Below are positions 23,052 through 38,782 of a stretch of 38,782 nt of DNA, in pieces. How positions within the stretch are numbered: the first letter of the stretch is position 1; each line of letters begins with the position of its first letter. Source of the DNA: Actinomycetota bacterium. GTDB taxonomy: Bacteria > Armatimonadota > SYMT01. The notes under the pieces were generated by a model, which saw only the letters and a program-made list of their open reading frames with translations, was not told the origin of the DNA and did not search any database. The stretch spans positions 1 through 38,782 of the forward strand of contig SYKE01000153.1 in NCBI GenBank assembly GCA_005798285.1, written 5' to 3'. The translations under genes were made by a program, and so were the position numbers.

Positions 23052-24107
23052 TCAGGGCTGGCGTGGCTTCAGGCACAGCAACTCATCCCAGTGGCCCAGG
23101 TCGATCTCCGCGACGTACCGGCTGTGGAATCGCTCCAGCGGGATTTGATCCCAGTTCGGGACCACCTCTTGGAGCTCCGAAGGGATGCGGTGAATGAGCG
23201 CCGTGTAAGCGTGCTCGAGGAGCCGGTAGCCCGACGTGGCGGATCCGACAAACGCTGGATGCGGCGGTATCAGCCCATCCTCCACCATGGTCCGATCAAG
23301 CACATCGGAGATTTCATCCAGCAGTGCCTGCTTTCGCAGCCATGGCGTCTCCAACTTCACCGCTTCCTCGACCTGTGCGCCCATTCGCCGGTACATCCGC
23401 GGTAGTCCGGTGAACCGGGCCAACAGCCACTTATCGTAGGGGAAATAGACGCGATCCAGCAGAAACGCCAGTTGGACTCCCAGACGGATCGCCTTGCCGA
23501 AGGCAATGGATGCGTAGAGTTCATTCCCCCGCATCAGGGCTCGGTGGAGCGCGTAGCAACCCATGCCGGAGTAGTATCGGCTCCAATGCGCCAGGCGGCG
23601 AAGCCACACCGGCTCGGGATAGTAACTGTCGAATTGAGACCGAAGCGCAGTGAACCGGCCCGAAGGATCGTGCCAGATTTCGCCGTTGATGACGTGCACG
23701 ATGTCTTCCTCCGGGATGGAGAGCCACTCTTGATGCGATTCCGGCGCCTTCTTGAGGCCAATGGTTCGGTCGAGAAACGCCTCCAGCGACTCCGGAGCGA
23801 GTCCGGCGCCCTTGACGTGACCCTCTCGAAGCGATACCCCCTCGAATTCCGGCGGGAGCGCGGCTGCCACGGCGCGGGCGAGCGAGGCAGCGTTTCGCTG
23901 CAGCACCGCCTCCGGAAGAATGAGATCGATGCGGAGCCCCCAATGGTGGTCTCTGGAGAACTCGTCGTCCAGGCCGTAGGCTTCGGAGCCCAACCCGAAG
24001 AGTCCGAATGCGCCCTCACTCGCGACCTCGGGGACCTCCTGTTCGACGATGGGCAGCACGTGTTGCTGGAAAAAACGGCGGCTGACCGCCACGATCGACT
24101 CCGGCAC
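23052..24107 (-). CDS. DUF4037 protein (nucleotidyltransferase-like)
   Basis: 351 residues, cytoplasmic. The N-terminal part has the nucleotidyltransferase-like block GLGSEAYGLDDEFSRDHHWGLRIDLIL (about residues 38-64), in which a GS motif is followed by acidic residues DD and RID. The DUF4037 domain follows (YYSGMGCYALHRALMRGNELYASIAFGKAIRL, then LDRVYFPYDKWLLARF), as in other members of this uncharacterised group. The start is uncertain: GTG 24107 has AAGG about 10 nt upstream and gives a normal length, while the frame runs on to GTG 24179. It ends 25 nt from the convergent propeller gene and is divergent from greA with 224 nt between. No partner suggests a pathway. Confidence 0.78.
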   Translation of the reverse strand: MPESIVAVSRRFFQQHVLPIVEQEVPEVASEGAFGLFGLGSEAYGLDDEFSRDHHWGLRIDLILPEAVLQRNAASLARAVAAALPPEFEGVSLREGHVKGAGLAPESLEAFLDRTIGLKKAPESHQEWLSIPEEDIVHVINGEIWHDPSGRFTALRSQFDSYYPEPVWLRRLAHWSRYYSGMGCYALHRALMRGNELYASIAFGKAIRLGVQLAFLLDRVYFPYDKWLLARFTGLPRMYRRMGAQVEEAVKLETPWLRKQALLDEISDVLDRTMVEDGLIPPHPAFVGSATSGYRLLEHAYTALIHRIPSELQEVVPNWDQIPLERFHSRYVAEIDLGHWDELLCLKPRQP

Positions 24108-24268
24108 CTCGGTGTCCCTTTCACACGGCCCGTCGGCCCGTTTGGCGGCAGCATCCTTCCCGCACCTGCATCTCCGCACTGGGACCGATGGGAGAGTTGG
24201 CTGTTGGCCCCGCGTTCTCCTGGAATGGAGGCTTTGTGGTATTATTTGGGATCCTCACCTCCATCCAA

Positions 24269-24290
24269 CTCCCGAGTCACTCGGAGTCTG
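24269..24290 (+). promoter_or_regulatory. Hairpin in the greA leader
   Basis: ACTCCCGAG and CTCGGAGT pair around a TCA loop with one bulged C, about 42 nt before the greA start. It lies downstream of TATTAT (24240-24245), a possible -10 element without a recognisable -35. It could be an attenuating or stabilising leader structure. Confidence 0.3.
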
Positions 24291-24331
24291 CGCGTCGGGC
24301 GACCGGCCTCTCTCAAGTGGGAAACCATTCC

Positions 24332-24820
24332 GTGGAAGATCTGCCAAAGGGCAAGTACTACGTTACCGTCGCGGGCGGCGCACGACTTCAGGCAGAGTAT
24401 GAAGAACTCCTGACGAAGCGCACCGAAGTTGCGGGGAACATCCGTACGGCCAAGGCCTACGGAGACCTTTCCGAGAATTTCGAGTACCACGAAGCCAAGC
24501 GGGAGCAGGGTTTCCTTGAGGGTCGCATCCAGCAGCTCAAGGTGATCTTGCCGTCGCTCCACGTGGTGCGCCCCGAAGATGTTCCTCTCGACACCGTCAG
24601 CTTCGGCTCGGTGGTCACGCTCCGGGAAGAAACCGGCGATGAGTGGGATGTCTTGATCGTCGGACCCCTGGAAGCCGACCCGATGTCGGACCGCATCTCC
24701 TACGAGTCCCCGCTGGGCAGCGCCCTCACCGGGCAGTCGGTCGGAAAAACCGTTTCCATTGAGGTCCCGGCCGGGCGGACCGACTACGAGATCGTGGCCA
24801 TTCGTACCTACGAGGCCTGA
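24332..24820 (+). CDS. greA: Transcription elongation factor GreA
   Basis: 162 residues, normal for GreA. The N-terminal coiled coil (GARLQAEYEELLTKRTEVAGNI...GDLSENFEYHEAKREQGFLEGRI) has the acidic tip DLSENFEY that enters the polymerase secondary channel to stimulate cleavage of backtracked RNA. The C-terminal FKBP-like domain follows (VSFGSVVTLREETGDEWDVLIVG, then SPLGSALTGQSVGKTVSIEVPAG). Start is GTG 24332, with GGGAA 8 nt upstream; the frame runs to 24188 but those residues do not fit GreA. Its TGA abuts the start of the cyclase gene, so translation of the two is probably coupled. Confidence 0.92.
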   Translation: MEDLPKGKYYVTVAGGARLQAEYEELLTKRTEVAGNIRTAKAYGDLSENFEYHEAKREQGFLEGRIQQLKVILPSLHVVRPEDVPLDTVSFGSVVTLREETGDEWDVLIVGPLEADPMSDRISYESPLGSALTGQSVGKTVSIEVPAGRTDYEIVAIRTYEA

Positions 24821-27800
24821 TTGTCCGGCGTGAGCGCCATCAAACCCGAACCGACTGCAGACGGTCCCAACGGTTTGGGAAACGGCGCTCACTCGCAGGA
24901 GTGCCCGCACTGCGGGTACGCGCCGCCGCTGATCTGTCCCCGTTGCAAACTCGCGATGCCGTTCTCAGCACGCCACTGCGGCGGGTGCGGCGCCGCGCTC
25001 CTTCAACGCTGCGAGAACTGCCGGGAGTGGACCTCCGCTGGGCTGCCTCACTGTTGGCACTGCGGCGAAGTTTTGGCTCGAGCCGAAGCCACGCGTCGCT
25101 CGGACGCCGTGGGAGAGCGACGCAGGGTGGCCATCGTCTTCGCCGACGTCGCCGACTCCACGGCGCTCGCGGATCGGCTCGAGACCGAAGCAGCTTTCGA
25201 TCTCCTCAGTGGCTGCCTTCAGGGCCTCGGCGCACGGGTGAGCGACGCCGGCGGGTTTGTCGTGAAGTCGCTGGGAGACGGTATTCTCTCGCTCTTCGGA
25301 GCGCCAACGGCCCACGGTGACGACGGCGAGAGGGCGGTGCGGGCGGGCCTGGCGATGCAGCGCTGGCTCGACGACTATCGCGAGATTTCGTTTGGCCGTC
25401 ACGGCGTACGACCCCGTGTGCGTATCGGCATCCACTTCGGCGAAGTGGTGGCCGCGCCCGTCGTGACCGGCGGACGGACCGAGTACGACGTTCTGGGCGA
25501 TGCGGTGAATGTCGCCCGCAGGGTCGAGACCGCCGCCCAACTCGATGGCGTCTGCGTGAGCGAGGCCATGTATCGGATCACGCGGTCCCGGTTTGAGTTT
25601 CGGGATCTCGGCGCTGCCCGTTTGAAGGGCAAGCCGGAGCCGATGCGCATCTACCGGGCGCTTCGAGAGCGCACCGAGCCCTCTCGGGTGGAGGCGCCCC
25701 TCATCGGTCGCGGCCCCGAACGGGAGTTGATCCGATCCTCCGTGCAGGAAATCCTCAAAGGTGAGGCGGGTGAGTTGCTCTTTCTGGGCCCGATGGGCCT
25801 CGGCAAGAGTCGCATCCTGGACGAGTTGACCCGGGAACTGGCATCAGCGGGGGTACCGTTTCTCACGGCGATCGGATCGGCTGCCGAGAGTGCGGTGCCG
25901 CTGGCGCTGTGGCGGAGATGGCTATTCGATCTGTTGCCGTTGGAGGCGGGCTGGAGTCACGAGCAGGCGGTTGCGGCGCTTCGCGAGGCGATGATCGGGG
26001 ATGATCTGGCGCCCTGGGCGCCCTGGATTGCGGCTCTGGCCGTGGCGCCGGACCGGCTGGCGGCGCTCGATCCGGAAGCTCGCGAGCAGGTGACTCTGGG
26101 CGCCCTCCACGCCTTCTTACGGCACTGGCTCTCTGGACGTCCCGGCGCCCTCGTTGTGGATGAGTTGAGCCTGGTGGATGGACCCTCTCGCAGAATCCTC
26201 CTGGGGCTGAGTCAGCGAACCGTGGGGATGCCCCCTTTGCTGCTGGCTGGGGGCGCGCGCGAGCCGGTGGAAGGGTATTCGCCTGACGTGAGGGTGCGCA
26301 CTCTCTCCCCATTGACCCGGGAAGAGACCGCCCAGTTCGTCACCGCGCTGCTGCCCGACCAGGTGCTCGACGCGGCGGCGCTCGATCAACTCGCGACGCG
26401 TTCGGCGGGCAGTCCGCTTTATCTCGGGTTGATGCTGAGCGCTGCCGCCGAGTCCCACGATCCACGGCAAGCGCTCCGAGCGGTGCCGGACACCCTTGAT
26501 GGGGTTCTTCGCGCGGAACTGGACGCCTTGCCGATCTCCGCGCGGGTTGCGCTGGAGACGGCATCGGTGTTGGGAGCTGTGTTCGCCGAGGACTGGCTCA
26601 GCCAGATCTACGGAGTCGAAAGCTGGCGTCTCGCGGCGGAAACTCTGGAGCGACGCGGCATTCTCGCGGAGATAAAACCGGCGCCCGACCGGGAGTTGGC
26701 ATTCCGGCACGGGGCTCTTCGAGAGGTTGCCCATGATGGGCTGTTGAGTGCGGATCGCACGCGGCTGCACGGTCGGGCAGCTGAAACGCTGTCGGACCGA
26801 GCGGGCACTCGCCCGGAGTTGGCGCGGCGCGCGGCGCTGCATTGGGGGGCAGCCGGAATGCCGGACGAAGCACTGAAGTGGAACCTCCAGGCTGCGGAGT
26901 ACGCGGCAGCGCTCTTCGCCGGCGACGAGGCGAGCGGACTGTATCAGGAGTGTCTGGAGCAGGCGGCCCGGCTCGGCGACCCGGTTTCGCTGGCTCGGTC
27001 CCGTATCGGCCTGGCGGAACTTGCAGCCCATGCCGGGGAGTTTCCCGCATCGATGGACGGCTATCGGCAGGCGATGGCGGAATTGGAACCCCTGGGGTCG
27101 CACGGCGAGGGCGTCGGGGGAGATGTGGCTCGGCTTCGTGCACGCGCCGCGCTCGGTTGGGCTCGCGTCTTCGGCCAGACCGGCGCGCTCTCCGAAGCGC
27201 TCGATCAGCTCGAGGTGGTCGACGCTTCGATCATCGGGGATCAGACTCCGGAAGCCACGCTCCTTCGCAATCGAGCGGGTGTCGAGCGATCCCAAAACCT
27301 CAGGGGTTTGGGAAGGGCCGAGGAGGCGATCGCCGCAGCACAGGTGGTGATCGCCGCGACGGATGCCGAAGAGCAGCTCCAGATCCGAGTGGCGGCGGGA
27401 GCGGCGCTGGGAGCGGCTTACCGACTCCTGGATGATTGGCCTCGTGCGGAGAGCGTTTTGAAGGAGTCCGCCGATCAGGCGGAGGCCGGTGGCGACTGGC
27501 AGGGCGCGGCGGCTTGCTGGATCAACCTGGGGTCGGGACTGCAGGCTGCCGGAAGGCTGGCCGAAGCGGCCGTAGCTCACGAACGGGCCGTCGAGTACGC
27601 GCGCCGAATCGGCGATGTGGAGAAGCTCGCCATCGCGCAGATGGACCTGGGAACCGTCTGCCTCAATCGAGGCGAGTGGAGCCTCGCGGAACAGGAGTTT
27701 CGAGCCGCCCGTGCGGAGTTCCAGCGGATGGGTCACACGCTGGGAGAGATTGCCTGCCTCTACAACCTGGGCGAAACTCAGCGATGGTCGGCCGGGCTCG

Positions 27801-28243
27801 ACGCTGCCTGGGCTTCAGTTGAAGCGGCCCGCAAGCTCTTTGGAGTGGTGGATGCGCCCGATCTCCAGGTACACTTCGAGCTTCTCCGCTCCGAGTTGAC
27901 CCTGTCGGTGGACCCGCTGGAGAGCTTGAACGGTGCTCGACGAGCCGCTGCGCTGGCGGGGGAGCTTGGGTATGAGGCGGGTCGAAGGCTGGCGCTGCTG
28001 ACCGAGGGCCGTGCGCTCCAGCGGGCAGCTCGCAGCGAGAGCGCCGTCGGAGTGCTGACGGATGCTGCCGAGCGCTTCCGCCGGGCCGACGAGCAACTGG
28101 AGCATGCCCGCGCGATGATTCAACTGGGGGTTGTGCTGGCCGACGTCGGTCGCGCCGTGGAGGCGCGCGCTGCTCGGGAGACCGGGACAGAACTGCTGAC
28201 CCAACTCGGCGCCACCCCCTGGCTTGCCACGGCTGCACTTTGA
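24821..28243 (+). CDS. Zinc-ribbon/class III adenylate cyclase/ATPase/TPR protein
   Basis: 1140 residues. Residues 28-82 hold zinc-ribbon modules (CPHCG..CPRC, CGGCG, CENC, CWHCG). Residues 100-283 are a class III cyclase with an apparently complete active site: metal-binding Asp 109 (FADVADST) and Asp 153 (SLGDG), adenine-selecting Lys 149 and Asp 223 (YDVLGD), and transition-state Asn 230 and Arg 234 (NVARR). It should make cAMP from ATP. Next is a P-loop ATPase (GPMGLGKSR, 323-331) with VVDELSLVD as possible Walker B (about 445), then a long TPR-like helical region to the end. This is the layout of large signalling ATPases with a cyclase head. The start is TTG 24821 immediately after the greA stop, with GAGG close upstream; GTG 24830 is the alternative. 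Confidence 0.9.
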   Translation: MSGVSAIKPEPTADGPNGLGNGAHSQECPHCGYAPPLICPRCKLAMPFSARHCGGCGAALLQRCENCREWTSAGLPHCWHCGEVLARAEATRRSDAVGERRRVAIVFADVADSTALADRLETEAAFDLLSGCLQGLGARVSDAGGFVVKSLGDGILSLFGAPTAHGDDGERAVRAGLAMQRWLDDYREISFGRHGVRPRVRIGIHFGEVVAAPVVTGGRTEYDVLGDAVNVARRVETAAQLDGVCVSEAMYRITRSRFEFRDLGAARLKGKPEPMRIYRALRERTEPSRVEAPLIGRGPERELIRSSVQEILKGEAGELLFLGPMGLGKSRILDELTRELASAGVPFLTAIGSAAESAVPLALWRRWLFDLLPLEAGWSHEQAVAALREAMIGDDLAPWAPWIAALAVAPDRLAALDPEAREQVTLGALHAFLRHWLSGRPGALVVDELSLVDGPSRRILLGLSQRTVGMPPLLLAGGAREPVEGYSPDVRVRTLSPLTREETAQFVTALLPDQVLDAAALDQLATRSAGSPLYLGLMLSAAAESHDPRQALRAVPDTLDGVLRAELDALPISARVALETASVLGAVFAEDWLSQIYGVESWRLAAETLERRGILAEIKPAPDRELAFRHGALREVAHDGLLSADRTRLHGRAAETLSDRAGTRPELARRAALHWGAAGMPDEALKWNLQAAEYAAALFAGDEASGLYQECLEQAARLGDPVSLARSRIGLAELAAHAGEFPASMDGYRQAMAELEPLGSHGEGVGGDVARLRARAALGWARVFGQTGALSEALDQLEVVDASIIGDQTPEATLLRNRAGVERSQNLRGLGRAEEAIAAAQVVIAATDAEEQLQIRVAAGAALGAAYRLLDDWPRAESVLKESADQAEAGGDWQGAAACWINLGSGLQAAGRLAEAAVAHERAVEYARRIGDVEKLAIAQMDLGTVCLNRGEWSLAEQEFRAARAEFQRMGHTLGEIACLYNLGETQRWSAGLDAAWASVEAARKLFGVVDAPDLQVHFELLRSELTLSVDPLESLNGARRAAALAGELGYEAGRRLALLTEGRALQRAARSESAVGVLTDAAERFRRADEQLEHARAMIQLGVVLADVGRAVEARAARETGTELLTQLGATPWLATAAL

Positions 28244-29923: not shown

Positions 29924-32002
29924 ATGCAGCACCAGATCACGGTTCGTCGCCTCCAGGGCGTGATTCCGCCCCCACCGGCGGCCGCCGGTCAGGTGGCGGC
30001 GGAAGCCATCGAGATCTTTCGACGAAATCTTGAACGGCTTGGGTACAGGCCGTCCGCGGAACTGCTTGCTGCCTGCGAGCAGCTATCCCAGTCCGACTTC
30101 GCCGATTTTCACCGGGACCTGTTGAGTGAACTCCAGGTCCTCACGGGAAGCCATGTGGCGTTCGAACCGCTCTATCCCGCGTTTCCGGAACAGGTTCGGA
30201 GGATGCCGTTCTGGCGGCTCTTCATCAATGCCCAAACGCACTATTTGACTTCGGGTCGATGGCGCCCCCGATTCCGTCTCCGGCTGCGACCGGCCGACGA
30301 TGCGGCTCATGAGTTGACCGAACTGCGTCCCGTGTCGGATATCGATCTTTGTTCGCTGATGGGAAACCTCATCCATCAGAACAACGCGTTCACAGGAGAT
30401 GACCGCACGGATCTGTCGTGGTTCGTCCGGACTCGCCCTGCCGAGGCGGAGGATCTGCTGCCCGATACGATGCGTCGGCGCGAGAATGCCGCCTATCTCG
30501 TTTCGTGGTTCCTGTCCGTCCGTCCGGATCGGTTGGATCTGGTGACTCGCTTCTGCAGAAGCGCGACGGACGTTCTGCGTCTTGCCGCGGTTTGCTCGGA
30601 AGGAGACGCGTCGCTGGCGACGCACGTCCGCTTCAAGTCATTCGGCCGCCGGATGCGGCGGGCGATGTTGTCCGTCATTGAAGCGCAAGAGTGCCCGGCC
30701 GCAGAGATGCAGGGCCTTCGAGAACGATGGCTGCGACTAGGAGAACGCATCCACCCCGGCGAGTTCGCCTCCGAGTTCCCGGCCGCGGCGGAGGCCTTTC
30801 GGATCACCCGGAACCGATTGCCCACCGAAAGCTACTATTCCAGATTGGAGCGCCAGCTCAGCGACGGAAACTTCGCTGGTGCGGCAGCGCAACTGGCGGA
30901 GCGGCCCGGCCAGTTTGCTCGACGATTGGATCATCTGTTTCGACTCGCCGGGGAGCAGGCCGGAGAGGTGCTCGCCCGGCTCGAGACCTGCGTCGACACG
31001 GTTCCGACCCCGATACTGCTGCAGTTGGCGTCACACTTTGGGCGTCGGGCCCAGGTGTTGGAACGGCGGACGTTCTTTCCAAAAGGCAATGTGGCTCGGG
31101 CCTTCACCGTGGAGAAGCCCCTGCATGCTCTGGATCCGGCCCTCTGCGAACGAACGGTGGCGCTTCTCGAGCGAACGCTTCGGAAGAGATTCGCGGCCCT
31201 CGAGCCCCTGGGCAATGTTTATCTTGACCCTGCGCTGGAGAATTTCCCAGCGCCGTTTGCTACACGCTCGGCGTCTCGGGCCTTTCGAACCCTGTCTCGT
31301 GGGAGCCGCCTGGATCTACCGCCGGGTGACACGATCCGGTTCTTCCTCTGGTGGACCGATGGCCCTCATCGAACGGATGTGGACCTCTCGGCGGCAGTGC
31401 TCGACGAGAACTACATCCTGAAGCAGTATGTCGCCTACTATCAGTTGAAGTCCGAGTGCGGCGTGCACTCCGGGGACATCGTTAGCGCCCCGAACGGCGC
31501 CGCCGAGTTCGTGGACATCTCGATTCCGGCTGCGCTGAAATGCGGTGGACGGTATCTCGCGATGACGGTGAACATGTACTGGGGTGGTCCCTTCTGTGAT
31601 CTACCCGAGTGCTTTGCGGGGTGGATGGCGAGGAGTCGGCCCGGGTCCGGCGAGATCTTCGAGCCGCGGACGGTGGTCGACCGGCTGGATCTCACCGCGG
31701 ATACGCACGTCGGCGTACCCCTGGTGGTGGATCTGGCCAACCGGAAGCTGATCTGGTGCGATCTGGCGCTGGGCCGCGCTCCCACCTGGCAGAACTCCCT
31801 CCACAACAACCTTCGCGGGGTGACGATGGGTGTGAGGGCCTTTGTCGAACTGCAGCGGCCGACGCTCCACGATCTGTTCCGCCTGCACGCCACCGCGCGC
31901 GGGCAACTGGTCAGCTCGCCCGCGCTTGCAGATACCGTGTTCTCGGTGGAGGCGGGCACGCCGTTCAAACTCGATGAGATCGGCGCACACTTCCTCGCCT
32001 GA
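29924..32002 (+). CDS. Large cytoplasmic protein with C-terminal TerD-like domain
   Basis: 692 residues without signal peptide or membrane segments. About residues 1-440 are helical, Arg/Leu/Glu-rich and not recognised. Residues about 465-570 look like a TerD domain: FFLWWTDGPHRTDVDLSAAVLDE (acidic DVDLS as in the calcium site of TerD), then a YYQLK element, then GVHSGDIVSAPNGAAEFVDISI, where HSGD is the TerD hallmark, and a strand-rich AMTVNMYWG. Residues 580-692 continue with a beta-rich tail. TerD-family proteins belong to tellurite/phage-resistance and stress systems; long proteins with this layout are known next to ter genes in some bacteria. None of terA, terB, terC or a kinase is nearby. 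The ATG has no Shine-Dalgarno sequence, so the start is tentative. Confidence 0.72.
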   Translation: MQHQITVRRLQGVIPPPPAAAGQVAAEAIEIFRRNLERLGYRPSAELLAACEQLSQSDFADFHRDLLSELQVLTGSHVAFEPLYPAFPEQVRRMPFWRLFINAQTHYLTSGRWRPRFRLRLRPADDAAHELTELRPVSDIDLCSLMGNLIHQNNAFTGDDRTDLSWFVRTRPAEAEDLLPDTMRRRENAAYLVSWFLSVRPDRLDLVTRFCRSATDVLRLAAVCSEGDASLATHVRFKSFGRRMRRAMLSVIEAQECPAAEMQGLRERWLRLGERIHPGEFASEFPAAAEAFRITRNRLPTESYYSRLERQLSDGNFAGAAAQLAERPGQFARRLDHLFRLAGEQAGEVLARLETCVDTVPTPILLQLASHFGRRAQVLERRTFFPKGNVARAFTVEKPLHALDPALCERTVALLERTLRKRFAALEPLGNVYLDPALENFPAPFATRSASRAFRTLSRGSRLDLPPGDTIRFFLWWTDGPHRTDVDLSAAVLDENYILKQYVAYYQLKSECGVHSGDIVSAPNGAAEFVDISIPAALKCGGRYLAMTVNMYWGGPFCDLPECFAGWMARSRPGSGEIFEPRTVVDRLDLTADTHVGVPLVVDLANRKLIWCDLALGRAPTWQNSLHNNLRGVTMGVRAFVELQRPTLHDLFRLHATARGQLVSSPALADTVFSVEAGTPFKLDEIGAHFLA

Positions 32003-32071
32003 ACTCGGCGGGGAGCGCCGCGCCGCGGCACATCGACGGGACTCGCGTTGGGGAGAGTCGGAGGACCGGGA

Positions 32072-32449
32072 TTGACCTTTCAGGCGTTGGATGAGCCGGT
32101 GGACCCGAGGTCGCCAGAGATAGAACTATCGGACTTTCAGCGAGTCGATCTCCGGGTGGGCACCATCGTCGATGCCCGTGCATTCCCGGAAGCGCGCAAA
32201 CCGGCGTACCGACTCTGGATCGACTTTGGATCGGCGATCGGAATTCGGACCTCCTCGGCGCAGATTACCGGCCTTTACCGGCCCGAGGAACTCATCGGGC
32301 GGCAGGTTATTGGGATCGTCAACTTCCCGCCACGGCAAATTGGGCCATTTCGATCGGAAGTACTCGTGATCGGGGTGGACGATGCCGATGGGGCCGTGGT
32401 TCTCCTAGCGCCGGACCGGCCCGTTCCTGATGGTTCACGACTCTACTGA
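32072..32449 (+). CDS. csaA: CsaA-like tRNA-binding domain protein
   Basis: 125 residues. The fold is the OB-type tRNA-binding domain shared with the C-terminus of methionyl-tRNA synthetase and with CsaA, a small dimeric chaperone and tRNA-binding protein. Sequence marks: FQRVDLRVGTIVDARAFPEARKPAYRLWIDFG, then GIRTSSAQITGLYRPEELIGRQVIGIVNFPPRQIGPFRSEVLVIGV. Start is TTG 32072, with GGAGG 7 nt upstream; the frame from 32048 would have no ribosome site. It lies 69 nt after the TerD-like gene, perhaps on the same transcript. Cellular role of CsaA outside secretion in Bacillus is not settled. Confidence 0.87.
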   Translation: MTFQALDEPVDPRSPEIELSDFQRVDLRVGTIVDARAFPEARKPAYRLWIDFGSAIGIRTSSAQITGLYRPEELIGRQVIGIVNFPPRQIGPFRSEVLVIGVDDADGAVVLLAPDRPVPDGSRLY

Positions 32450-33660: not shown

Positions 33661-33710
33661 CGGGACCTGAGCACCTTTGCACATTCGCAAAGGTCACAGG
33701 GGTGATCCCG
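33661..33710 (+). promoter_or_regulatory. Structured leader of the second prepilin gene
   Basis: A perfect 8-bp hairpin, ACCTTTGC-ACATTC-GCAAAGGT (33673-33694), is framed by CGGGACC (33661-33667) and GG-TGA-TCCCG (33701-33710), giving a two-level stem. It ends 45 nt before the GTG start of the prepilin. It does not fit the c-di-GMP riboswitch consensus that I know, but it has the shape of a 5' regulatory RNA element. Confidence 0.4.
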
Positions 33711-33754
33711 GTCAACCCATCGATGGTCTCCCGCTTCCGGAAAGGAAGTCCCGA

Positions 33755-34492
33755 GTGAAGAAGCCATCTCGAGGGTTCACCCTCATCGAACTTTTGGTCG
33801 TCATCGCAATCATCGCCATTTTGGCGGCAATCCTCTTCCCGGTGTTCGCCCAGGCTCGCGAGAAAGCCCGCTCGGCCCAGTGCCAGTCGAACCTCAAGCA
33901 GATCGGCGTCGGCATGACGATGTATGCTCAGGACTACGATGAAGTGTTCCCGCTGTATGTGGCGAACTGGAGCACCAGCGTCATCCAGTCCTACATCAAA
34001 AACGTGGATGTGGTGACTCGATGCCCGAGCGCTTCGCCGTCGACCAATATCGGCGCGGTGCCGACCAGTTCCTGCGCACCACGGTGCTACACCGGCGTGG
34101 CGTACGCTTTGAATGGGGCGCACCGGGACCCGGGCTATCCGACACCGCCCTTCACGTTCAACAACGCAACCGTGGCCAGCATGCCGATGGCGGGCACGCC
34201 ATCCGACACGGTGTGGGTCAGCGACTACGCCACGCCGCAGGCGAGCTATCCGCAGAACAATGCCTTTGTGCAGAACTGCGTGTTCTCGTACTGGGGCTCG
34301 CGCCACAACCGGGGAAACAACACCTTGTATCTCGATGGTCACGTCAAGACCGTTCAGATGCAGCGTTTGAAGGATCCGGACAACTTCGCGTTGGAAGGAC
34401 CGCCCCCGGCTGGGTTCTGCGCCGGATTTGCCAACTGCACGACGGTGGGCCCGTACCAGGTCTACGTCGACGCCTGCCGGCCGAAGGACTGA
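33755..34492 (+). CDS. Type IV prepilin-like protein with H-X9-DG motif, second copy
   Basis: 245 residues. Class III signal: [31 protein letters not shown], with Glu at +5 after the cut site, followed by [20 protein letters not shown]. The C-terminal part has the H-X9-DG motif in [12 protein letters not shown]. Several cysteines ([30 protein letters not shown]) may form disulfides in the exposed head. Start GTG 33755 has AAAGGA 9 nt upstream; the frame from 33677 would disrupt the leader. The glycosidase-like gene begins one base after its stop (34494), so the two are translationally coupled, which suggests that pilin-like protein and hydrolase act together at the surface. Only the N-terminal region is similar to the copy at 278-1123. 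Confidence 0.92.
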
Positions 34493-36244: not shown

Positions 36245-36763
36245 TCAGTAGGTCAGCAAGCTGAGCGCATCATGCGGCGCGAGCGCTTCCCGTCCCTCCA
36301 GGAAGGCCAGTTCGACCATAAAGACGAAGCCGGCGACTTCGCCCCCGCCGCGCTCGATGAGCTCCGCGGCGGCAGCGGCGGTGCCGCCGGTAGCCAGCAA
36401 GTCGTCCACCACCAACACTCGCTGCCCGGGCAGGAGAGCGTCCTTGTGCATTTCCACGGTGTTGGAGCCGTACTCCAGATCGTACTCCACTCGAATGGTT
36501 TCAGCCGGCAGTTTGCCCAGCTTTCGGATAGGGATGAATGGCTTGCTCAACGCGACCGCGATGGGAGCGCCAAAGATGAATCCTCGAGATTCGATACCGG
36601 CAATGGCGTCCGCGTCCACCTCTTGGGCATAGTCGGTCATCAGCCGAACGACCTCCGAAAAGGCCGCCGGGTCCGACAACACAGGAGTGATGTCTTTGAA
36701 GACAATCCCTTCGTTGGGGAAGTCCTTCACGTCTCGGATGAGGGATTCGGCAATGAGTGGCAA
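36245..36763 (-). CDS. apt: Adenine phosphoribosyltransferase
   Basis: 172 residues, the usual length. It joins adenine and PRPP to AMP and pyrophosphate in the cytoplasm. The PRPP-binding motif is VLVVDDLLATGGT at residues 116-128; GIVFKDITPVL (19-29), AGIESRGFIFG (55-65) and KLGKLPAETI (81-90) are typical of Apt. The start is TTG 36763, with GGGAG 9 nt upstream, 3 nt past the mtnA stop; no ATG in this frame gives a full N-terminus. It is last of the mtnP-mtnA-apt operon, where its task is to salvage the adenine freed by MtnP. Confidence 0.95.
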   Translation of the reverse strand: MPLIAESLIRDVKDFPNEGIVFKDITPVLSDPAAFSEVVRLMTDYAQEVDADAIAGIESRGFIFGAPIAVALSKPFIPIRKLGKLPAETIRVEYDLEYGSNTVEMHKDALLPGQRVLVVDDLLATGGTAAAAAELIERGGGEVAGFVFMVELAFLEGREALAPHDALSLLTY

Positions 36764-36766
36764 AGG

Positions 36767-37831
36767 TCAGTTCTCCCGGTTGCGAAGAGCCGTCAGGGAC
36801 GTGTCGAAGGGTGGCCAGGCGATGCCCCGCTCGGTGATGATCGCAGTGATCAGTCGCGAGGGCGTAACGTCGAACGCGGGATTGTATACGGAAACCCCCT
36901 CGGGCGCCAGTCGAATCGTTCTCGCATCGGTCACCTCGGAAGGATCTCGTTCTTCAATCGGAATCTCGTCTCCCGACTCGAGCGAAAAGTCTACCGTGGA
37001 TAGAGGGGCCGCCACGTAGAACGGCAGTCCGTGTGCGTGCGCCAGAACGGCCACGCCGTAAGTGCCGATCTTGTTGGCGGTGTCCCCGTTCGCTGCGATG
37101 CTGTCGGCCCCCACGATGGCGGCCTGCACCCGGCCCTGACGCATCAGCGAGCCCGCTACATTGTCGGAGATGAGTGTGGCGGGAATGCCCAACTGCAGAC
37201 ACTCCCAAGCCGTGAGGCGCATGCCCTGCAGACGGGGGCGCGTCTCATCCACCCACACGTGCAGCCGCTTGCCGGCCTCCACTGCCGACCGAACGACCCC
37301 GAGCGCCGTGCCGTGATACACCGCTGCAAGACTACCGGTGTTGCAGTGGGTGAGGATGTTGCCCTCATCGGGAAGGAGTTCGGCGCCGTAGGCTCCCATC
37401 GCGACGCATGCCGCGACATCTTCGTCCGCCATCTGTCGAGCCTCGGCAAGCAGCGCCTCCGCCAGTTCCACCGGTGGCAGGTCCGTTCCCAGGAGCACGC
37501 GGAGCATCCGTTCAATGGCCCATAAGAGGTTGACGGCGGTGGGGCGTGTCGACCCCAGTTCGCGTGCCGCGCCCTCAACTGCGGACCGGAAGTCCGAGAC
37601 GGATCGCTGGCTTGCCGCCAGCGCCGCCAGCGCCATCCCGTAGGCGGCCGAAATCCCGATCGCCGGCGCTCCGCGAACCGCCATGGTGCGAATGGCATCT
37701 GCGACTTCGTGCGAGTCTCGCAGCGTGAGGATCCGAAACTCCTCGGGAAGAATCCGCTGGTCGATCATGCGGACACAGGAGTCTTCCCAGTAGACGGTGT
37801 GGACGTCGCGGGGGAGGGGGGACGCTGTCAT
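36767..37831 (-). CDS. mtnA: S-methyl-5-thioribose-1-phosphate isomerase
   Basis: 354 residues. It turns methylthioribose-1-phosphate into methylthioribulose-1-phosphate in methionine salvage. The eIF2B-like fold is seen in MAVRGAPAIGISAAYGMALA (about 50-69). Catalytic residues are Cys 163 in ILTHCNTG and Asp 243 in VGADSIAANGD; NKIGTYGVAVLAHAHGLPFYVA follows. The start is ATG 37831 with AAGGA 4-5 nt upstream; the frame to 37882 would overlap the end of mtnP. It sits 14 nt after mtnP and 3 nt before apt. No mtnB, mtnK or later steps of the pathway are in the window. Confidence 0.96.
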   Translation of the reverse strand: MTASPLPRDVHTVYWEDSCVRMIDQRILPEEFRILTLRDSHEVADAIRTMAVRGAPAIGISAAYGMALAALAASQRSVSDFRSAVEGAARELGSTRPTAVNLLWAIERMLRVLLGTDLPPVELAEALLAEARQMADEDVAACVAMGAYGAELLPDEGNILTHCNTGSLAAVYHGTALGVVRSAVEAGKRLHVWVDETRPRLQGMRLTAWECLQLGIPATLISDNVAGSLMRQGRVQAAIVGADSIAANGDTANKIGTYGVAVLAHAHGLPFYVAAPLSTVDFSLESGDEIPIEERDPSEVTDARTIRLAPEGVSVYNPAFDVTPSRLITAIITERGIAWPPFDTSLTALRNREN

Positions 37832-37845
37832 TGGATCCTTCACGG

Positions 37846-38643
37846 TTAGCCTAGCCGGGCCTTCCGCGCCTCGTCTTCGCACGAGCAGTGACGGTCGGCG
37901 CCCATCCTCGGCACGGTCTCTCGGATGAGGGCCTGGATCTTATCCACGTTGAGTCGGAAGACCCGGAACACTTCTTCAATGGAAACCGGCTCCCGCCCGT
38001 GGGAAATGCCGGTGTCGTAGTCCGTGACGAGAGCAATGCCGGTGTAGCAAATCCCGAGTTCTCTGGCCAGCATCACTTCCGGATACTGAGACATGGTGAC
38101 CACATCCCAGCCTTCGCGAGTGAACCACGCGCTCTCGGCACGAGTGGAGAACCGGGGGCCGTTGATCACGACGATCGTACCTGAGTCCCGCATTGGGATG
38201 CCGAGCCGACGTCCCTCTTCGAGGACGAGTTCTCGAAGGCGACCGCAGTACGGCTCCGCTGCGCCAATGTGGTGGGTCTCCGGACCGTCGAAGTACGTGT
38301 CGTGGCGGCCGCGGGTCCGGTCCACAAATTGATCCAGCACTACGAACTCGCCGGGGTGGATGTCCTCCTGCAGGCTGCCGCACGAGCAGGGGGCAAGGAT
38401 TTCTCGAACTCCGAGTGCGCGGAAGGCCCAGATGTTGGCCCGGTAGTTCACCGCATGTGCCGGATGCTGGTGCTTCTTTCCGTGGCGCGGAAGGAAGGCG
38501 ACGGGGCGTCCCGCAACGGTCGCCAGTGCGATCCGATCGCTGGGGGCGCCGAACGGAGTCTCCACCTCGATTTCCCGAACATCGTCCAGGAACTCGTAAA
38601 AGCCTGATCCCCCAAACACCCCGATGGTGGCGGTCTCGGTCAT
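37846..38643 (-). CDS. mtnP: S-methyl-5'-thioadenosine phosphorylase
   Basis: 265 residues. It splits methylthioadenosine with phosphate into adenine and methylthioribose-1-phosphate. Family marks: IGVFGGSGFYEF (phosphate loop), RHGKKHQHPAHAVNYRANIWA, CSCGSLQEDIHPGEFV, INGPRFSTRAES and MSQYPEVMLARELGICY, then VTDYDTG, where the Asp contacts the adenine ring. This fits MtnP better than purine nucleoside phosphorylase. Start ATG 38643 has GGAGGT 9 nt upstream and overlaps the stop of the upstream gene (ATGA). It heads the salvage group mtnP-mtnA-apt. Confidence 0.95.
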   Translation of the reverse strand: MTETATIGVFGGSGFYEFLDDVREIEVETPFGAPSDRIALATVAGRPVAFLPRHGKKHQHPAHAVNYRANIWAFRALGVREILAPCSCGSLQEDIHPGEFVVLDQFVDRTRGRHDTYFDGPETHHIGAAEPYCGRLRELVLEEGRRLGIPMRDSGTIVVINGPRFSTRAESAWFTREGWDVVTMSQYPEVMLARELGICYTGIALVTDYDTGISHGREPVSIEEVFRVFRLNVDKIQALIRETVPRMGADRHCSCEDEARKARLG

Positions 38644-38782
38644 CGTGGGTGACCTCCGGTCAAAAGCATGACTCCCACCACGGTGGCAACCCACAGCAGG
38701 CCGTTCACCAGAAGTGGGCGATCCTCAACCAGTTCCAGCACCGGATTGCCGCCCTTTCCTCGCTGGTGGCTCAGATAGAGGA
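38640..38782 (-). CDS. UbiA-like prenyltransferase, C-terminal end (partial)
   Basis: The last 47 codons of a minus-strand gene that begins outside the window. The readable end is LYLSHQRGKGGNPVLELVEDRPLLVNG, then the membrane segment LLWVATVVGVMLL and TGGHPR. The pattern NPVLELVEDRPLLVNGLLWV resembles the last loop and helix of UbiA-family enzymes such as decaprenyl-phosphate phosphoribosyltransferase. Its TGA overlaps the mtnP start by 4 nt, so the two are coupled in one operon. The identification rests on a short stretch and is tentative. Confidence 0.6.
   Translation of the reverse strand, partial: LYLSHQRGKGGNPVLELVEDRPLLVNGLLWVATVVGVMLLTGGHPR

Follow-up and report, generated by a model that had tools for sequence, protein, structure and literature searches.

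What does a large protein with TerD-like motifs do when it stands apart from any ter operon? We asked this of a gene in the window, by which we mean the whole 38,782-nucleotide stretch of DNA that was analysed and which comes from an assembly that is 69% complete. The gene is an intact reading frame with an ATG start and no internal stops, its start codon coincides with the start in most aligned homologues, and its GC fractions at codon positions 1, 2 and 3 (0.68, 0.48 and 0.74) are the same as those of the other window genes. It is preceded by a gene for a DUF1501 protein and followed, 45 bases downstream on the same strand, by the CsaA-like gene that the earlier note had named there (TIGR02222, E 3e-48). 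The features of the locus are as follows.

29924..32002, + strand: whole gene, 692 amino acids, a RING-less relative of NF041916 (MXAN_6230/SCO0854), from the NCBIfam profile and the homologue alignment
29924..31243, + strand: N-terminal helical domain, residues 1-440, from the AlphaFold model
30245..30277, + strand: place of the Prok-RING_4 insert of RING-bearing relatives, residues ~108-118, absent here, from the alignment and Pfam
31289..31756, + strand: TerD-fold domain, residues ~456-611, from the family profile, hhalign, the AlphaFold model and structure search
31376..31516, + strand: invariant acidic/HSGD site (D485, D487, S516-G517-D518, G525, E528, D531), from the 77-sequence alignment
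31802..31993, + strand: C-terminal helical tail, residues ~627-690, from the secondary structure of the AlphaFold model
32048..32449, + strand: CsaA-like protein with a tRNA-binding domain, a neighbour only, from Pfam and TIGR02222

Farther off in the window, Pfam recognised a 1140-residue protein (24821-28243, + strand) that combines a double zinc ribbon, a nucleotidyl cyclase, an AAA ATPase and TPR repeats, as well as a DUF4037 protein (23052-24179, - strand) beside GreA (24188-24820). Reading frames at 36245-38694 (- strand), read by eye only, resemble adenine phosphoribosyltransferase, MtnA-like and MTA-phosphorylase-like proteins, that is, a methionine/purine salvage cluster, and a prepilin-type leader motif ([17 protein letters not shown]) occurs in two window proteins (278-1255, - strand; 33677-34492, + strand).

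To establish whether the C-terminal part is a TerD domain, we began from the elements that had been taken as signs of it, DVDLS and GVHSGD, which are present at residues 485-489 and 513-518. The Pfam TerD model (PF02342) does not match the protein even at E 10, its gathering cut-off not being reached, so that sequence motifs alone are weak evidence here and independent proof was needed. Alignment of residues 440-692 with 37 TerD domains by hhalign gave a probability of 97.3% (E 2.1e-11) over residues ~456-611, with control segments (residues 1-200 and 200-440) each below 1%, and when a profile built from 20 family sequences was compared with PDB chains, the top match was the TerD structure 2kxt, weak (E 0.033) but in the same register. 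The AlphaFold model, built from 77 sequences with a mean pLDDT of 92.3, was nearest to TerD crystal structures (3ibz, E 6.9e-6, TM 0.64 on the target; 2qz7, E 8.1e-4), and thus the check by structure prediction that the earlier note had proposed found the expected fold. Residues ~456-611 are a genuine TerD domain, though a very divergent one. With TerD (2kxt, 3ibz, 2qz7) it shares the fold, the register of the DxD and H-S/T-G-D motifs and the acidic residue that follows, whereas the GDGDDE-type loop of TerD reads PNGAAE in the window protein and the TerD-like part, which lies below Pfam detection, makes up only ~155 of 692 residues and is joined to a 440-residue helical domain. Eight residues (D485, D487, S516, G517, D518, G525, E528 and D531) do not vary across the 77 aligned sequences, H515 is conserved in 76, and these acidic/HSGD positions form a candidate metal or ligand site by analogy with TerD. 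TerD proteins occur widely, and there is no settled view of what they bind or do.

Turning to the remainder of the protein, residues 1-440 are mostly helical in the AlphaFold model (pLDDT 93.5). No Pfam family was found for them, and a structure search of the model yielded no matching solved fold, the best PDB match having an E of 0.17; a TROVE-like (TROVE/Ro60) helical part was considered and rejected at a profile probability below 1%. The description of this region as about 440 unrecognised residues therefore holds for Pfam and fails for NCBIfam, where a single family spans most of the protein. That family, NF041916 (MXAN_6230/SCO0854 family RING domain-containing protein), matches with an E of 1.8e-132 and a score of 443 bits, below its curated cut-off of 600 bits, and the homology covers nearly the whole length in both helical and TerD parts (model positions 3-93, 181-355 and 380-758 of 842), the window protein differing in having no RING insert and a shorter C-terminus. 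The phage family PHROG 33734, annotated only as hypothetical, matches residues 213-677 (E 6e-69). Because these two matches together extend over most of its length, the protein is not the undescribed component that it had been proposed to be. The helical and TerD parts are conserved together in the full-length members aligned, which points to one old architecture and not to a local fusion. We found no paper on MXAN_6230 or SCO0854 in the literature, and a link of the family to repair (see below) may have been mentioned earlier.

The RING finger for which the NCBI family is named is absent from the window protein by Pfam and by alignment, as it is from relatives of the same phylum and of Bacillota. 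Pfam detects Prok-RING_4 in Streptomyces and Variovorax plasmid members (loci L059 and L060), and a CxxC (RING) insert occurs in 7 of the 77 sequences in the alignment, each of these 7 from a viral contig. Loss of the RING by N-terminal truncation was rejected, since the alignment places it as an internal insert; the RING is an optional insert of the family, and members without it make up a large and conserved portion of an 88-row tree. Within this tree the window copy groups with homologues from seven other genomes of its phylum or of Abditibacteriota, the clade of these eight genomes and one viral contig having a support of 98; its long end branch (1.37) and unusual composition leave its exact place within the group unsure. 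Relatives are common in Paenibacillus and occur, full-length or partial, in 70 viral contigs and several cultured phages. Paenibacillus planticolens has a second, broken copy (L058), of which only fragments align (residues 34-86 and 318-415), and an intact copy (L038) elsewhere on the same contig. A suspected second copy beside the Pnkp gene of the window's own genome (L194, 384 amino acids, RREN motif) was rejected as a Transposase_31-type protein.

To see the company that the family keeps, we examined 123 loci with flanks of 6-8 kb, of which 121 had an identified family gene. Clustering of the neighbour genes ranked Thg1 first, and the neighbour families confirmed by Pfam were Thg1, RtcB, Hen1_N, PNKP_ligase, RlaP, TROVE, PolyA_pol (CCA) and AAA_33 kinase. 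At least one confirmed repair family or RtcR lay within the fetched flanks at 25 of the 121 loci, and such neighbours were seen around homologues of Paenibacillus, Variovorax, phages and viral contigs. In one locus (L043) the gene is followed by Hen1, Pnkp, RtcB and Thg1, all on the same strand, and in another (L018) TROVE, RlaP and RtcB lie downstream of it; Thg1 and a small kinase are found near the family gene in L019, L020 and L025, and Hen1-Pnkp in L038 and L046; in Variovorax, RtcR lies a short way upstream on the opposite strand. Although their focal proteins fall into a single group at a linkage of ≥85% identity, L025, L038 and L046 have different repair partners. Across 45 genomes, 4 of 21 Thg1 genes and 3 of 80 RtcB genes were near the family gene, against 0.05 and 0.21 expected, with a true significance that is lower because some of these loci are related. 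Most Paenibacillus loci have no repair gene nearby, and in the reverse test only 5 of 80 viral Thg1 loci had the family gene within their flanks. Beside viral copies, an N6-methylase-like protein recurs within 1-2 genes (L093, L096, L097, L101, L105 and L106), that of L105 being Pfam N6_Mtase.

Around the window gene itself no adjacent RNA-repair gene was found, the CsaA-like protein being the only tRNA-binding neighbour, and none adjoins the family gene in the five related loci of the phylum with listed neighbours, so that the link in this group exists only at the level of genomes. There, we compared 12 carriers with 279 other genomes of the phylum (291 in all), which revealed enrichment in carriers of Thg1 (7/12 versus 8/279, p 1.4e-7), RlaP (10/12 versus 38/279, p 3e-7) and Pnkp (8/12 versus 45/279, p 2e-4), p-values that ignore kinship. 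All three remained significant when only genomes of 3.8 Mb or more were counted, a set assembled by hand from listed genomes with some unlisted ones left out. RtcB was not enriched (9/12 versus 216/279) and was rejected as a specific partner. The genome from which the window comes encodes Pnkp at full length as well as RtcB, each on a contig other than the window's, and at 69% completeness neither Thg1 nor RlaP was detected in it. Among viral records that hold the family gene, 26 of 50 also hold Thg1, a raw count over carrier records only; Thg1 has been called sporadic in jumbo phages (PMC7824862). In one related genome (L196, G044 C77), Hen1 and Pnkp lie ~9 kb from a Thg1 and small-kinase pair, with the family gene on another contig than this repair island.

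Since relatives stand repeatedly among genes that mend RNA, a helper in RNA repair is more likely than a tellurite-resistance gene, and this bears on the reading closest to the earlier note, namely a stand-alone stress or defence protein of Ter type. In that case its TerD domain would, as in ter systems, capture calcium or a signal resembling a nucleotide when phages, toxins or oxidants strike, and RNA repair would have no special part in its role. Such a protein would account for the TerD fold and its invariant acidic site, and comparative work on jumbo phages has held that their Ter proteins serve to exclude rival phages and lists some of these phages as having TerD on its own (PMC7824862). 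TerD proper is also somewhat commoner in carriers (2/12 versus 2/279, p 0.009), but 10 of the 12 phylum carriers lack it, so a ter system is not the usual partner. The earlier claim that no other ter gene is present was upheld in that PF02342 matches nothing in the 69% complete assembly, a genome-wide search that covered TerD alone among the ter genes. A survey of homologue neighbourhoods, which had been suggested as a way to find ter genes, recognised none in those examined, nor were any seen around the window protein; PADLOC defence models do not match the protein, and its full-length architecture differs from that of TerD. We regard this reading as unlikely; a role in stress or conflict is plausible, as had been proposed, but the evidence favours RNA or tRNA repair as its form. 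Three of the four phylum genomes with true TerD (G020, G044 and G114) have several copies each, with 5 to 11 matches.

The abundance of viral relatives, with copies near tRNAs, Thg1 and CCA-adding genes, could also be read as the mark of a counter-defence gene of viral origin that the host has kept and that shields translation from suicidal tRNA-cutting defences. Against this stand the well-supported grouping of the window copy with genomes of its phylum and of Abditibacteriota, which suggests long cellular residence, and the failure to recognise phage genes among its window neighbours, and we consider such an origin improbable. Prok-RING_4 in two relatives and the family name taken from it might also suggest an E3-like protein from a prokaryotic system of the ubiquitin type, degenerate through loss of its RING finger, but the optional nature of the insert and the breadth of the RING-less part of the tree, together with neighbour proteins, read or scanned, among which no ubiquitin-like, E1, E2 or JAB genes were recognised, make this very doubtful. 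Just as hard to credit is joint work with the CsaA-like protein in translation or protein export: although the two genes are close neighbours on one strand and the CsaA-like protein carries a tRNA-binding domain, their pairing is absent from the five related loci with listed neighbours, and a functional pairing was rejected.

We therefore return to RNA repair. Computation supplies the fold, the kinship with NF041916, the invariant site, and the clustering and joint occurrence with genes for RNA repair. The window protein belongs to an already named family as a variant without the RING; it carries a TerD-fold domain, and genomic context links it to RNA repair. Judged by this context, the family probably has an accessory role in the repair of RNA, chiefly of tRNA, with a helical scaffold and a TerD-fold domain. 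The family occurs in the same genomes as the bacterial and phage repair systems RtcB/RtcR, Pnkp/Hen1, RlaP, TROVE and Thg1, and in some lineages in the same gene clusters, whereas the window protein has no known repair enzyme domain and its helical part no known catalytic or RNA-binding motif. Many such systems of bacteria and phages have been reviewed, and the family is not named there as a repair component (PMC7824862). The ligand of the TerD-like domain would, at a guess, be metal-dependent and might be a nucleotide or the end of an RNA cut by an RNase, and the helical part might dock repair enzymes such as Pnkp/Hen1, RtcB, RlaP or Thg1. In its own organism the window protein would likewise act in RNA repair; we infer the biochemical step, in which it would most likely serve the response to RNA damage as a scaffold that binds a ligand or a metal.

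A wider proposal, which we offer tentatively, is that a broad bacterial and large-phage family in which a TerD-fold sensor is fused to a new helical domain constitutes a dedicated component of RNA repair. If true, this would join the ter stress world to tRNA repair, and it would give a function to a phage family known only as hypothetical, one that includes a confidently modelled helical domain without a solved relative. The recurrence of this TerD-fold family with Pnkp/Hen1, RtcB, RlaP and Thg1 would then give it a testable task, the response to cut RNA.
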